IMG/VR virus record: IMGVR_UViG_3300006033_000011
Location: 1-39,565 of that record
DNA: 39,565 nt
Direction: 5' to 3' (one strand)
Source of the DNA: a virus
The notes under the pieces were generated by a model. That model did not search any database. It was not told where the DNA came from and saw nothing but the letters and a program-made list of their open reading frames with translations. Shown one piece after another: positions 12,839 to 18,344 of this stretch. A program made the translations under genes and the position numbers. How positions within the stretch are numbered: position 1 is the first letter of the stretch; each line of letters opens with the position of its first letter.

Positions 12839-13362
12839 TGGTTTTCCTTGCTTGATGCCAGCAGCGCTCCGGCTGCGTCATGTAAATCCCACCCGGCGCT
12901 GCGTAGCTCGGCATCGCCGGTCGATTTCGCCTGCCGCAGCATCGCGCTGCCTACGGTGTCCATTTCCGTCGCCAGCCACTTCACGCGGTGGGCAAGCTCT
13001 TCCGGTGTCATGTCGCATGGCTGTGCTGGCGGTTGCTCGCCAGCCCACAGTGCGCGCACCTTTTCCCACTCTCTTCGGTCGCAGTCCCAGCCCAGCGCCT
13101 TGAGGCTGGCGCCGGTTGCGCGGTCTTCGTCGTCTTGCGCGAAGGCACGGTCCAGTTCTGTGCGAATCAGTGCCCGCGAGTGCGGTGGTAGCTCCGGCCA
13201 CTTGTCCACCAGCCAATCGGCGCAGACGCCAACTATGTAGGTCATGCGCCCAAGGCAGTAGCGGAAAGCGGCGATGACCATCAGGTCTTCCCAGCCCCAG
13301 GCGCCTTGCTCGGATAGGGTGGTGGGCACGTAGCGGGTGCCGCGCTTGGTGTAGATGGTCAT
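12835..13362 (-). CDS. Hypothetical 175-residue protein
   Basis: This leftward accessory gene encodes a helical protein with a Trp/aromatic-rich first third (G-W-E-D-L-M-V-I-A-A-F-R-Y-C-L-G-R-M at about 23-40) that I associate with a small phage family of unknown role. A central L-P-P-H-S-R-A-L-I-R-T-E-L segment and a charged C-terminal part follow. The ATG lies just after the stop of the frameshifted gene upstream (three bases apart in the corrected frame). No catalytic motif can be assigned. Confidence 0.7.
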   Translation of the reverse strand: MTIYTKRGTRYVPTTLSEQGAWGWEDLMVIAAFRYCLGRMTYIVGVCADWLVDKWPELPPHSRALIRTELDRAFAQDDEDRATGASLKALGWDCDRREWEKVRALWAGEQPPAQPCDMTPEELAHRVKWLATEMDTVGSAMLRQAKSTGDAELRSAGWDLHDAAGALLASSKENQ

Positions 13363-13365
13363 GGC

Positions 13366-13823
13366 TCAATCCTCAAATGTGGGCACCTTGCACCAGTGGG
13401 TTTCCCACACCGGACCGGTGCCCAAGATTCCGTATGTCGCCACCCCACTCGGGCGGTGAATGAGTTGCAGTTTCTGGCCGCGCGGGGTGTTCTCGTCAAT
13501 CGGCTGCCAGTGGTAAGGCTCAGGTGTTCCTCCGTACCCTTCCCGCTGAGCAGGGCATGCTGCTGCTCACGCATGAATAGGGTGCCTGATATGTCCTGGC
13601 GGGCCTTGTAAGAGGCATGCTCGTTGATTGCCCTGGTGGTGGCTTGGATGCGAGAAAGCTCCTGCATCACTTTGCGCGTGAATCCGCCCAGCTTGGACTT
13701 CGTGAATGCCCGGTAGCAGGACTGTTTCACCGCCGCGCGGGCGGCCTGGTTGCCTGGGCTCACGCGCCAGAAGTACAGGCGCAGCTTGCAGGCAGAGTGC
13801 AGCTGCAAGAAGTGGCCTCTCAT
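13366..13823 (-). pseudogene. Accessory gene with apparent -1 base frameshift (about 152 residues if corrected)
   Basis: From the ATG at 13823 (ATGA overlap with the upstream gene) the frame reads as a normal basic, helical protein (M-R-G-H-F-L-Q-L-H-S-A-C ... A-A-R-A-A-V-K-Q-S-C-Y-R-A-F-T-K-S-K-L-G-G-F) down to about 13545, ending in L-L-S-G-K-G. Beyond that the same frame turns to nonsense. The neighbouring frame, open from 13566 to 13366, gives a clear module: E-P-Y-H-W-Q-P-I-D-E-N-T-P-R-G-Q-K-L-Q-L-I and W-E-T-H-W-C-K-V-P-T-F-E-D then stop. That second frame has no start codon of its own. Adding one G to the GGG at about 13550 would join the two. Either a real mutation or a sequence error. 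Confidence 0.6.
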
Positions 13824-14174
13824 ACCCGCCCCCGGTAGCTCAATTCGCGTGGCACATAGGGGGCACGCTGGGCTGCATTGCACACGCGGCCGTAATCTGT
13901 GGGCAGTTCTATGCGTGTGACGGTGGCCTGACTGGCGTCCACTGGTGCATCGGCTTTCAGCGTCACCCCTTTTTTTCTTGCGGTTGGCCATCGACACGCT
14001 GGCGGGCTTCGCAGGCGCTGACGACTTGCGTTTCAGCACCACGGTCATGATGCGGTGCACCGTTGACTTGGGCCTTTCCAGCTTTCGGGCAATGGCGCTC
14101 AGGCCAAGCCCTTGTTCTGCCAGTGCTCTGATTTGCTCGATGACCTCGGGCGGGGTGACGTATCCATATGTCAT
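13820..14174 (-). CDS. HTH protein with apparent +1 base frameshift at an A7 tract
   Basis: From the ATG at 14174 the first 68 residues read M-T-Y-G-Y-V-T-P-P-E-V-I-E-Q-I, then a helix-turn-helix (G-L-G-L-S-A-I-A-R-K-L, R-P-K-S-T-V-H-R-I-M) and a Lys/Arg-rich linker, the design of a small resolvase-like or transcription-factor HTH. At AAAAAAAGGGG (about 13967-13977) the frame runs on as junk into the next gene. The +1 frame gives V-T-L-K-A-D-A-P-V-D-A ... I-E-L-P-T-D-Y-G-R-V and stops in an ATGA overlap with the next gene, as expected for this operon. Six A instead of seven would restore a protein of about 116 residues. A GTG start at 13966 for a separate 48-residue protein is the alternative. 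Confidence 0.6.
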
Positions 14175-14183
14175 GGGGTGGGC

Positions 14184-14210
14184 AATAAAAAAGCCCGCGC
14201 TGGGCGGGCT
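14184..14210 (-). terminator. Intrinsic terminator after the cytosine methyltransferase gene
   Basis: On the reverse strand the stem AGCCCGC/GCGGGCT (14204-14210 and 14192-14198) with a five-base loop is followed by TTTTTATT. It begins seven bases after the methyltransferase stop and precedes the HTH gene, so expression of all downstream accessory genes must pass it. Confidence 0.88.
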
Positions 14211-14216
14211 GGTTGG

Positions 14217-15272
14217 TTATGGGGTGCAGTCCATCAAGCACTCGATGAAGACTTGCGCCGCTTTCGCGTTGATGGCATTGCCGTAGGCGCGCAGTCGTCC
14301 CACTCGGGCGGAAGCCCCATGAGCCAGCGGGAATGTGCCGGGTTCAACTGGCCTCCACTTTCCATCCCGGCAGTAGAGCCAGTCAGCATCTGTCCAGTAG
14401 CCGTTAGTCGGGCCGGTTGTGGGTTGTCGCGGAATGCCTCGAATGCCACACCCGGAAGGCTCACCGTCGCCTTGCTTCCATCCGGCCTGCGGCCAGTCAT
14501 AGATCCCTGCGGCATGCGCTGCCCTCCGTCCCCGTTGGATTTCGTTGGAGAAGGCCACCCCGCCAAATGCACTGCTATGTCCGCCGTGCTGATCTGCGGG
14601 TCGGACGGCTTCCGATTCCCGATGATTGGTGGGCGCGGCTTCGCATCCACGATAGTGCTGTTCGGTGTCGGCCACCCCGCCAGATAAGCCTGGCGTGGAA
14701 GTTGATCCACTCGATGCTTGCCATCGCGCTGGGCCACCATTCCAGGCGTGTCCTTCCAGTCCCGTGCTGCTGGTGTGACCCACCCAGTAGAGCCGGTCAC
14801 GGATGTGCGGCGCACCGATGCCCGCAGACGGGAACGGGACCGCCCCGAAGGCGTAACCCATGGCTTCCATGTCATGGCATACAAGGTCGATCCAAGGGTC
14901 TGCGTCTTTGCTCGCAACCTGCTCTCCAAGGACGATTGCAGGTCGGCACTCTTTGATGAGGTGATGGAAGTGGGGCCAGAGGTGCCGCTCGTCATCAAAC
15001 CCAGCTCCTTGGCCTGCCGCGCTGAAAGGTTGGCACGGACAGGAACCAGTCCAAACAGGTCGGTCGTCACTCCATCCGGCAGACCGGAGGGCATGGGACC
15101 AGACGCCAATGCCTGCGAAGAAATGGCACTGCGTGAAGCCGCGTAAGTCGCTGGGGTAAACATCTTCGATGCTCCTTTCGTCCACGATGCCGGGCGCGAT
15201 ATGCCCGGCGGTAATGAGATTGCGCAGCCATTTGGCCGCGTACTTGTCAATTTCGTTGTAGTAGGCGGTCAT
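14217..15272 (-). CDS. DNA (cytosine-5) methyltransferase
   Basis: This 351-residue enzyme carries the ordered motifs of C5 methyltransferases: motif [10 protein letters not shown] at 50-58 for S-adenosylmethionine; motif [11 protein letters not shown] with nucleophile Cys80; motif VI as L-G-E-Q-V (E-Q-V instead of E-N-V); motif [15 protein letters not shown]; and motif [11 protein letters not shown] near the end. The target-recognition region between VIII and X is low-complexity. It probably protects phage DNA from restriction. The start codon follows directly on the U-tract of a terminator and has no ribosome site, which is odd. Nearly the whole gene is also open in another frame of the same strand (14234-15250). 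Confidence 0.93.
14234..15250 (-). CDS. Overlapping alternative-frame ORF inside the methyltransferase gene
   Basis: A same-strand frame stays open for 338 codons; a likely start is the ATG at 15163 ([10 protein letters not shown]...), giving 309 residues. The product is Ser/Thr/Pro-rich with repeated G-W-x-T/S-P units ([25 protein letters not shown]), a segment [11 protein letters not shown] ... [10 protein letters not shown], and near the end [18 protein letters not shown]. From memory, phage and prophage proteins with exactly these segments are widespread beside or over cytosine methyltransferase genes, often annotated as hypothetical or methyltransferase. Its ordered, motif-like sequence is unlike a random shadow frame. 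Whether it is translated is unknown. Confidence 0.45.
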
Positions 15273-15275
15273 AAA

Positions 15276-15300
15276 AAAGCCACCTCGGCGGGTGGCTTGG
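15276..15300 (-). terminator. Intrinsic terminator between exonuclease and cytosine methyltransferase genes
   Basis: On the reverse strand the stem AAGCCACC/GGTGGCTT with a six-base loop is followed by T residues that run straight into the ATG of the methyltransferase gene. It lies 20 bases after the stop of the exonuclease gene. Confidence 0.88.
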
Positions 15301-15320: not shown

Positions 15321-17177
15321 TCAGGCTGCAACCACAGCCAGATCCCGCAGGAACTGCGCCTTGGCTGCCAGGGCCTGGGCGGCGATGGCTTCGCAGATGG
15401 CCGGGAAGTCATCCTCGTGGTACAGCGGCGCAGCGCGTTCGCGGCCAGCGGGTTCAAAGCCCAGGGCGCGCAGGTCTTCGGCCGTCACGCTCATGTGCTG
15501 CAGGCGCTCTTTGATGGTGCCGATGCGCAGGGTGGGCACGCTGGTGCGTACCTTTGGCGCGAACATCGCGGCTTGGTAGCCAGCGCTGACCTCCGCGCAG
15601 TCGTCACATGCCTTGTCAACAAGGCCCTGCTGCTCGCCCTTCTCGCAGCAGTAGCTGGTGCGGGCTGCAGGTGCGGGAGGGCTGGCAATCCGCAGCCCTG
15701 CATTGACCACGCCAACCTCGCCACGAATGAGCGGGACATTGGCGGCGTTCTCTGCAGGCCTAGCGCATTCTTCAGCCATGGTGCTTTTGGGCTCCACGAT
15801 CAGCACCGCCTGCTGCTCGGCTTCCAGCTTCGCCCGTGCTTCGCGGTCGGCGCGGGCTGCTTCCTCCTGGCGGATGCGCTCGCGCTCGGCTTCCAGGCGC
15901 TGCTGCTCGGCGGCCTTGCGGGGGGCGATGATGGCGGCCAGGTCGTCGGGTGCTTTCAGCACCAGGGTTGCGGCATCGGGCACCACCAGGCCGCTGGCTT
16001 CCAGCGTCTTCACGTTGGCATGGATGCGGGCTGCGATGTTGCTGGCCTCGATCTTGGCCCGTGCCAGTTCGTCGTTCACCGCGCTGCGCAGGCTGTCTAC
16101 GGTGCGCTTGCCTTTGATGGCCCCGGCGAAGTCGGCTGGCACCTGGGGCATGTACGGCGCGGGCATGGCCGCATTCAGCCCAGCGATGTGTTCGCGCAGC
16201 GCCGTGATGCCCCCGGCCACGATCTCGCCGCGGATCTGGTCTTTCTTTAGGGAGACCAGCTTCTCGCGTTGCAGTCGTGTGGTGCGAGCCAATTCCCGGT
16301 ATTCCTTCATGAGCTGGCGTACAACATTCACATCAGAGAACTGCGCAAGGGCATGCTCTTCTGCAGACTCCAGTTCGTCCTCGACGCGCTTCAGTCGTTT
16401 GCACGCAGCCTCAGTGTCTGCGAACTCTTGGTCGGTGCTAGGTTCTGCGGGGATGCGCTCGACAAATTCACGCAGAAGTGCGCCATAGGCTGGCAAGTTG
16501 GAAACGATGGCAATTTGCCCATCCACCCGCAAACTGACGGCTGGCAGCGTTTCCATGGGTGAGGCAACCACGGGCGCGGGCGCAGCCTCGGGTGGAACCC
16601 AGGCGGCCAGGTCGGCAGCAAACTGCTTCCAGCCTGCAATCAGCTGGGCGCGGCGCTCGGGCTTGGATTCGTACCAAAGCGGGTGCGTGCCACCCGGCGT
16701 CCCGTCGCTGGTGGTGAACAGTGCGCGGCTTGCCCCGCTGACCAGCAATTGGTGCTCCAGCTGCAGCCAATAGTGCGGCTCCAGGTCGCTGGCCTGCACC
16801 TGTTGCAGCAGGGACTGGTTCAGCAGCTTGTTTTCCCAGATCAGATCGTCCAGCAGGTCGATTCCGTCAAAGCTGGCCAGGAGTGGCAGGCCGTCCACCT
16901 CGCGCGTGGCCACCACGGGGAAGAACTCCGTACCGGCAATGCCCTCGGCAATGGGGCGGGCCAGTGCCTCGGCTTCGTGCCCGGCATCGAAGATGCGCTG
17001 TTTGGCTGGGCTGACTTCTTCGGTCAGGCCGGTTGCCTTCTGGCGCAGCAGTTCGTCGCGGGTGGTGTACTTGGACAGGCCCAGCGCTGCGGCGGCTTCA
17101 CTCGCGCAAAAATGTTTTGAACGTGCGGCCAGCCAGGCTGCGGAACCTTGGGGGGCGTTTTCAAGTGGGGTGTACAT
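15321..17177 (-). CDS. YqaJ-type recombination exonuclease with long coiled-coil C-terminal region
   Basis: The first about 200 residues match the YqaJ/lambda-exonuclease-like nuclease fold: R-S-K-H-F-C-A-S-E-A-A-A-A-L-G near the start, G-H-E-A-E-A-L-A-R-P at about 70, then S-F-D-G-I-D and W-E-N-K, the D-(E-x-K) metal site. It would resect double-stranded ends to make single strands for RecT, encoded just upstream. The protein is 618 residues, about twice the normal length. Residues about 245-340 and 430-480 are coiled coil (runs of E-A-E-R-E-R-I-R-Q-E-E), followed by a Cys-containing segment and a C-terminal helical domain. It could be a fusion with one or two other recombination-region proteins. 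The ATG has an AGGA ribosome site. A host-type palindromic repeat lies just upstream. Confidence 0.85.
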   Translation of the reverse strand: MYTPLENAPQGSAAWLAARSKHFCASEAAAALGLSKYTTRDELLRQKATGLTEEVSPAKQRIFDAGHEAEALARPIAEGIAGTEFFPVVATREVDGLPLLASFDGIDLLDDLIWENKLLNQSLLQQVQASDLEPHYWLQLEHQLLVSGASRALFTTSDGTPGGTHPLWYESKPERRAQLIAGWKQFAADLAAWVPPEAAPAPVVASPMETLPAVSLRVDGQIAIVSNLPAYGALLREFVERIPAEPSTDQEFADTEAACKRLKRVEDELESAEEHALAQFSDVNVVRQLMKEYRELARTTRLQREKLVSLKKDQIRGEIVAGGITALREHIAGLNAAMPAPYMPQVPADFAGAIKGKRTVDSLRSAVNDELARAKIEASNIAARIHANVKTLEASGLVVPDAATLVLKAPDDLAAIIAPRKAAEQQRLEAERERIRQEEAARADREARAKLEAEQQAVLIVEPKSTMAEECARPAENAANVPLIRGEVGVVNAGLRIASPPAPAARTSYCCEKGEQQGLVDKACDDCAEVSAGYQAAMFAPKVRTSVPTLRIGTIKERLQHMSVTAEDLRALGFEPAGRERAAPLYHEDDFPAICEAIAAQALAAKAQFLRDLAVVAA

Positions 17178-17246: not shown

Positions 17247-18344
17247 TTAGGCCGATTCCAGCGCGAACTGGCGTTCTTCAAACACGGCCGTCAGTGCGGC
17301 GCGCTGCTCGGGCTCTGGCACTTCACCAATCAGGTCTGCCACGGTGTAGAGCGTGTCCAGGTCGGCAGCGGCGCGCAGGCGCTGCTCCAGCTCTTGGGCG
17401 GGGGGTGCCGGTGGCGCTACCAGGAAGTCCTCGCCTTTTGGCTGCACGTCGGTGACCTGCTTGGCGGCGGGCTTGGCCGCTGCCTTCTCGACATCAGTGA
17501 GTGGCGCGCGAATGGCGGCCTCCTGCTCGGCTGTCACCGTCCCCTTGGTTTTGATCTTGCCCACCACGCTGTCTGCCGTGGCCTTGCCTGCGGCGATGGC
17601 TTTGCGCCAGCTGGGCAGCAGATCCGCAAACTGCTCGGGGGTGTAGGCGGGCTTGGGGGCTTCGGGGGGTGTCAGATCCTCGGCCATGCCCATGAACTTC
17701 TCGCCGGGTTCTGCCAGCTCGTCAGGGGTATAGACGCCAAGAATCACGTCCGGGGCATACAAGCGTGCCCACTTCTTCTGTGCCAGGTACGCCAGCTGCT
17801 GCTTCGGGTCATCCGCCCACTGGGTGGAGTTGCGCACGCGCGCCTGGGCCAGCAGAAGATCCAGAACACGGGGTTCTGCTTCGCCTTTCAAAGTGGCCCA
17901 GACACGGATGCCGCACCCTTCTTCGTCGCTCATTCCCCAACCAGGAACGCGGTACTCGCCCTTTTCGCCTCGCTTGATGATGAACTTCCCGATTACCTTC
18001 TCCCAGGGGCCGTACCACTCAAAGTGAAAACGATCTTTCACGGCCTTGGATGCGTTGACCACAGCAGCCACAAGCTGCCCCTCGTAGCCCAGAGTGCCGT
18101 TCACAAGGTGGGTTTTTTGGGCCACTGCGATAGGGTTCATGCCCCATTGCATGGACTGGAGCACCACGGCAAAGCAGTCGCCCTTTGAGCCACGCAAGTG
18201 CTGGGGGATTGTGGTTTTGCCGCTGGCCATCAGGTCTGCAATTCGCTCCAGGCGCTCCAGGCTGTTGTTGTCCATGAGCAGGGCATAGCTGCTGGCGCTG
18301 CTGGTGGCCAGGGCTGTGTTTTCGGTCTGTGTCAGTGCATTCAT
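17247..18344 (-). CDS. RecT-family single-strand annealing protein
   Basis: This 365-residue protein follows the RecT pattern. N-terminal residues 30-75 have L-A-D-L-M-A-S-G-K-T-T-I-P-x-H-L-R-G and C-F-A-V-V-L-Q-S-M-Q-W-G-M-N-P. A block G-T-L-G-Y-E-G-Q-L follows, and later E-G-C-G-I-R-V-W-A-T. P-K-Q-Q-L-A-Y-L-A-Q-K-K-W-A-R-L-Y-A-P-D-V-I-L-G closes the core. The region after about 215 is a Lys/Ala/Pro-rich tail and a helical C-terminal domain. RecT proteins coat single strands and anneal homologous DNA. Together with the YqaJ nuclease downstream it forms a phage recombination pair. GAGGG serves as ribosome site and the start overlaps the upstream zinc-protein gene in ATGA. Confidence 0.93.
   Translation of the reverse strand: MNALTQTENTALATSSASSYALLMDNNSLERLERIADLMASGKTTIPQHLRGSKGDCFAVVLQSMQWGMNPIAVAQKTHLVNGTLGYEGQLVAAVVNASKAVKDRFHFEWYGPWEKVIGKFIIKRGEKGEYRVPGWGMSDEEGCGIRVWATLKGEAEPRVLDLLLAQARVRNSTQWADDPKQQLAYLAQKKWARLYAPDVILGVYTPDELAEPGEKFMGMAEDLTPPEAPKPAYTPEQFADLLPSWRKAIAAGKATADSVVGKIKTKGTVTAEQEAAIRAPLTDVEKAAAKPAAKQVTDVQPKGEDFLVAPPAPPAQELEQRLRAAADLDTLYTVADLIGEVPEPEQRAALTAVFEERQFALESA

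Follow-up and report, generated by a model that had tools for sequence, protein, structure and literature searches.

A conserved +1-frame gene nested in a phage C5 cytosine methyltransferase gene most likely encodes the motif IX half of the same enzyme

In C5 cytosine methyltransferases, motif IX separates the recognition domain from motif X. M.EcoHK31I, reported by Lee, Kam and Shaw in 1995, is a YGGCCR methyltransferase composed of alpha and beta polypeptides; its beta polypeptide, of 176 amino acids, is reportedly read from a different, overlapping frame of the alpha gene. The larger polypeptide of this enzyme carries motifs I–VIII and X and the smaller one motif IX, the recognition domain being assigned, by prediction, to the larger subunit (PMC3404938). 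M.AquI (CYCGRG) is another C5 methyltransferase split in two, and its smaller subunit holds part of the variable region (PMC3404938). The split-enzyme principle is already known from these two systems.

Here, we analyzed a 39,565-nucleotide stretch of virus DNA (hereafter the window; IMG/VR record IMGVR_UViG_3300006033_000011, positions 1 to 39,565), in which a C5 methyltransferase gene, alpha, occupies frame 1 at positions 14217–15272 of the minus strand, the strand of all features of the two frames and their signals given below. Its 351-residue product matches Pfam PF00145 (1.3e-14) and phrog_363 (9.5e-90), and alignment to PF00145 and M.HhaI places it among the C5 methyltransferases by its motif IV PCQ and its motifs VI, VIII and X, with the motif IV catalytic loop PCQPFS at 15021–15038 and motif X, RAYGNAIN, at 14268–14291. 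An initial annotation, made from the letters alone, had credited this protein with all catalytic motifs; motifs I–VIII and X are indeed present, but frame 1 contains no motif IX before GNAIN and alpha lacks the full motif set of a single-chain C5 enzyme. The same annotation had noticed a second frame of the same strand, open for 338 codons over nearly the same DNA, and this frame exists as described: shifted by one base, it runs from a TTG over 14234–15250, and its product carries the reported G-W-x-T/S-P units, 11-residue block and 16-residue block. Within it lies beta (14234–15163), a nested, +1-shifted gene of 309 codons from an internal ATG, whose product, with a predicted pI of 11.0 and a mass of 32.7 kDa, contains W-x-TP modules and a motif IX-like block. 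The neighbors of the locus include a RecE-like exonuclease (15321–17177) and a RecT-like annealing protein (17247–18344), which place the gene in a phage recombination region. An ORF at 13359–14174 of the minus strand has a helix-turn-helix-like N-terminus (weak match to phrog_5536) and C-terminal two thirds of odd composition, and is possibly a wrongly joined or frameshifted gene.

Compared by description, M.EcoHK31I and the window share the division of motifs I–VIII and X from motif IX, and in the window, as reportedly in M.EcoHK31I, the small polypeptide is read from another frame within the large gene. The two differ in that the recognition domain is placed in the larger subunit of M.EcoHK31I, whereas modules at the recognition position lie in beta here, although this placement may not define the M.EcoHK31I type, the assignment being itself a prediction. 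They also differ in context, a type II restriction system there and a phage gene beside RecE/RecT-type recombination genes here, and in the size of beta, with 309 residues here against a reported 176 in M.EcoHK31I. In M.AquI the smaller subunit has motifs IX and X, whereas the window keeps motif X in alpha. The single-chain enzymes E. coli Dcm and M.HhaI have the same catalytic motifs I–VIII and X as alpha, but carry motif IX in the same chain (LTPRECARLMGF in Dcm); Dcm has no long second-frame ORF. As far as checked, what is new here is the breadth of the arrangement across phages, the evidence of selection, the internal start and the presence of probable recognition modules in the nested subunit. 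A search of openly licensed papers, with partial coverage, returned no account of beta genes nested within methyltransferase genes of phages, although curators of REBASE may be aware of them.

Loci were drawn from phage records, viral contigs and genomes, their methyltransferase proteins were aligned, and 75 relatives less than 85% identical were kept. As a null, synonymous codons were shuffled within each gene, which holds both the methyltransferase protein and its codon usage exactly. Over methyltransferase residues 39–333 of the 75 relatives, frame 2 contains four stops in 21,609 codons, against 226.8 ± 12.5 expected. The viral-contig set leans towards loci found via frame 2, and the unbiased subset agrees: the 16 loci obtained without frame 2 as a query, window included, have two frame-2 stops where 47 are expected. 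Single frame-2 stops were found among the relatives at alpha residues 55 and 64. The remaining shadow frames have stops near or above the null, frame +3 having slightly more. In the reciprocal shuffle, which keeps the beta residues, the module region contains no alpha-frame stop against 140 ± 10 expected, so alpha must also remain open across this region.

Mismatch rates at frame-1 codon positions 1, 2 and 3 show how the coding load is distributed along the overlap. Upstream of the beta start they are 0.160, 0.121 and 0.466, which is ordinary frame-1 coding, and over residues 39–175 they are 0.176, 0.140 and 0.322, with reduced freedom at the third position. Over residues 176–295, the module region, they become 0.338, 0.213 and 0.144, the pattern of a frame-2 gene, and over residues 296–334, where motifs IX and X overlap, every position is constrained (0.138, 0.104 and 0.154). 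The initial annotation had called the methyltransferase low-complexity between motifs VIII and X, and this is accounted for by the frame-2 codon pattern: alpha is low-complexity there because it is the shadow frame. Purifying selection acts on both frames, as in overlapping genes; frame 2 is a genuine gene. The large-scale dual coding claimed in the initial annotation is supported by the stop, similarity and codon-position tests, and the checks it had proposed (frame-2 stops among relatives, constraint at codon sites and protein-level homology of the frame-2 product) all came out in its favor.

Frame-2 stops are enriched on both sides of the overlap, with 116 observed against 74.5 expected before residue 37 and 66 against 33 after residue 335 in the relatives. 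At residues 37–38, a frame-2 ATG is present in 62 of the 75 relatives, where synonymous shuffling yields 26.7 ± 3.8; in the window it lies within alpha codons D37–V38, at 15161–15163. It is preceded, at a spacing of 8 nt, by the Shine-Dalgarno sequence AAAGGAG (15172–15178), formed by the alpha codons Arg33 (AGG) and Ser34 (AGC). A Shine-Dalgarno match of at least 5 nt occurs in 28 of the 75 relatives (2.7 ± 1.6 expected), and the rare AGG encodes Arg33 in 32 of 75, compared with 104 of 2,236 elsewhere. Because stops are in excess upstream and the ATG and Shine-Dalgarno sequence are conserved, beta most likely starts at ATG 15163–15161 to give the 309-residue product. The TTG at 15250, 29 codons further upstream, which had been taken as the start, was rejected on the same grounds, and the extension between the two (15164–15250), with its enriched stops and frame-1-only codon pattern, is probably untranslated. 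In 13 of the 75 relatives the aligned start codon is not ATG but, in most cases, ACG or ATA, so some betas must start elsewhere.

The methyltransferase ATG had been said to have no ribosome site; a Shine-Dalgarno-like GAGGTG (15281–15286) is in fact found 8 nt before it, in the 3' arm of a terminator-like hairpin (15298–15277; -13 kcal/mol) directly upstream. This hairpin, by enclosing GAGGTG, may hold down alpha translation. A further terminator-like hairpin with a T tract (14192–14210) lies downstream of both stops; terminator matches around both hairpins are no more frequent than in shuffles. Both frames are likely to be translated.

The motif IX-like block of beta (14300–14347, 16 residues) sits at the place corresponding to motif IX, with LNPTWVEWLMGFPIGWTDL in other families. 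Because a simple motif IX HMM scores beta weakly (best 8.5 bits, against 2.3 in 535 shuffles), profile–profile comparison was used: hhalign matched the beta block to canonical motif IX over about 28 columns with a probability of 90.5 and a score of 24.4, whereas the maximum in 60 column-shuffled controls was 11.2. Upstream of this block, the beta module region (14426–14785), with alpha as its shadow, holds the G-W-x-T/S-P units. The number of W-x-TP modules per beta varies from one to five, mostly three or four, and these modules are probably the target-recognition part. The beta family has no match in Pfam or NCBIfam. AlphaFold prediction of beta alone gave a low-confidence model (mean pLDDT 56, pTM 0.25), with which a PDB fold search found no match, and a PDB profile search with beta returned a single, implausible hit at 0.05.

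We compared the presence of an in-frame motif IX with that of a second ORF. The 37 listed loci of a cellular genome sample and E. coli Dcm, one enzyme being counted twice, have motif IX in frame 1, and none has the beta block. By pattern, 14 loci lack motif IX, and seven of them were left out as unclear: L181, probably not a C5 enzyme; L193, which has LTAREMLRLQGFP but no matched motif X; L206; L219, which ends at a contig end; and L222–L224, long proteins of another layout. In each of the other seven, which are complete methyltransferases, a long ORF in the second frame closes with a motif IX-like block; the open-frame lengths of L216 and L221 are not significant alone (P 0.08 and 0.15). Among the sequences compared, the second ORF tracks with the absence of an in-frame motif IX.

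Some relatives carry the same parts in other layouts. In mycobacteriophage AbbysRanger the two halves are neighboring genes, an M.AquI-like arrangement: gp76 contains motifs I–VIII and falls in phrog_363, as does alpha of the window, and gp75 unites the TP modules known from beta with motifs IX and X in a single frame. The match of gp75 is both to phrog_1008, to which beta of the window also belongs, and to the C-terminal part of the methyltransferase family phrog_116. An hhalign comparison of beta with AbbysRanger gp75 gave 84%. A plasmid enzyme of Ca. Megaera combines LNPDWVEWLMGYPISWTDG and SLGNAVVP within a single chain. L236 and L238 carry parts of the C-terminal half in the alpha frame, which indicates that frame changes have happened in evolution. 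In L238, the gp84 of Arthrobacter phage MidnightRain (335–1789), the TP modules sit in the +1 frame and frame 1 holds motifs IX and X; a frameshift, or some third arrangement, would have to underlie such a mixed layout.

From these sequence comparisons, we consider it highly probable that a single C5 methyltransferase is built from alpha and beta as its two subunits, and that beta contributes motif IX and probably target recognition. Alpha would supply the AdoMet-binding and catalytic core with motifs I–VIII and, beyond the shadow stretch, motif X; beta, initiated independently at the internal ATG with its own Shine-Dalgarno sequence, would supply the W-x-TP modules and motif IX. One mRNA would yield two proteins that assemble into one active enzyme, presumably a heterodimer, which would most likely methylate the phage's own DNA against host restriction. 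As to origin, paired frame changes in an ancestral single-chain enzyme may have moved the recognition part and motif IX to the other frame, internal initiation rescuing the displaced part; the AbbysRanger, Megaera and MidnightRain (L238) layouts could represent other solutions to the same rearrangement.

Other explanations of the second frame fare less well. It might be a passive shadow, open and alike among relatives only through conservation of the methyltransferase protein and its GC-rich codons. In conserved genes, shadow frames are indeed similar to one another, and the other shadow frames also exceed the shuffle null in similarity; the excess is nevertheless largest for frame 2, and the near absence of stops, the conservation of the internal Shine-Dalgarno sequence and ATG, and a module region in which frame-1 third positions vary least, a pattern that no shadow accounts for, leave this reading a negligible probability. 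Taken together, the synonymous-shuffle, reciprocal-shuffle and codon-position tests rule out a passive shadow ORF. It is also very improbable that programmed frameshifting or slippage joins both frames into one long methyltransferase, as the C-terminal parts found in the alpha frame of L236 and L238 could suggest: the internal start signals are conserved, beta is conserved across nearly the whole overlap and not only past a shift site, and motif X is back in frame 1, which would require two shifts.

That beta is a genuine overprinted gene of unrelated function, for example an anti-restriction or DNA-binding protein, would fit its real coding, its very basic product, its want of Pfam and NCBIfam relatives, and the long N-terminal part over motifs IV–VIII, which is conserved in its own right. 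We nonetheless judge this unlikely, as the motif IX-like block falls exactly where alpha is without motif IX, the second ORF tracks with the missing in-frame motif, and the PHROG of beta also takes in AbbysRanger gp75, a protein with motifs IX and X at its end. Most likely, the second protein is not an unrelated overprint but the missing motif IX and target-recognition half of the same enzyme.

A tblastn search with the frame-2 product found a relative in 211 phage records, 97 of them over at least 80% of its length. Nested frames were also recovered with frame-1 queries only: in a second, divergent phage enzyme family the nested ORF is longer than the null in all 24 members (P of about 0.01 at most), and the same holds for seven of eight members of a mycobacteriophage family at P 0.02 or less. 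The nested frame also occurs in N15 gp58, epsilon15, BcepC6B and Rhodobacter, Erythrobacter, Klebsiella and Salmonella phages, and the hosts seen include proteobacteria, mycobacteria and Paenibacillus, together with gut phages and others. The statement in the initial annotation that similar proteins recur in prophages was right, the family being phrog_1008. Its members, such as the 'putative Mte8-like protein' of K1 phages, Paenibacillus phage Honeybear gp56, PMG1 gp57 and Tunturi_1 gp50, are frame-2 proteins like beta but are annotated phage by phage, as DNA methyltransferase or Mte8-like, and nothing in the phrog_1008-type records examined marks them as the second subunit of an overlapped enzyme. 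Annotation is equally inconsistent at the level of genes: alpha alone is called in some genomes, beta alone in PMG1 and Tunturi_1, both in K1ind3, Honeybear and PhiXhv-28, and neither in SAP012. In Salmonella phage SAP012 (L120, 1564–2556) both frames look intact. In Pseudomonas phage PMG1 (L003, 1400–2300) beta, the only gene called in GenBank, is intact and alpha shifts frame near the beta start, with its N-terminal 'DERSI' in one frame and the rest in the next; this frame change may be a sequencing error, a broken alpha or a real difference.

We lean, with some reserve, towards a broader view, in which a large share of the phage C5 methyltransferases listed as complete would be only the alpha halves of obligate nested heterodimers, and beta cassettes would be modular and exchangeable, specificity evolving largely apart from the catalytic subunit despite the shared DNA. 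If so, few conserved overlapping genes of double-stranded DNA phages would match beta in length and spread, and the existence of beta would explain phage methyltransferases that have no motif IX and a low-complexity stretch before motif X, as well as recurrent 'hypothetical' or mislabelled proteins. One-frame gene callers choose different halves in different genomes, and cloning or annotating the called ORF alone may yield an inactive enzyme. These loci also form a large natural data set on the co-evolution of two frames in one DNA and on how recognition modules are exchanged while the catalytic core stays fixed.

Motif VI of alpha, VLGEQVAS (residues about 115–122), reads E-Q-V in this subfamily instead of E-N-V; the codon concerned also sets beta residues in the conserved SLESRLRA block, and the overlap might be the cause, but other nested families retain ENV. 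A second, different nested +1 product was observed in another C5 lineage, one that keeps the canonical motif IX (L234, 850–1713; L235, 757–1890; L237, 626–1825; L239, 565–1404), in which 'CSLSDILE..V..KYFLS.KA.QGIL.RA.KRGK.LP..L' recurs whole or in part. Its carriers are a mycobacteriophage, a phage of Streptococcus, a virus of Methanobacterium and a virus from an enrichment culture; GenBank annotates one of these products (PQE85_gp51), and the open-frame lengths exceed the synonymous null.
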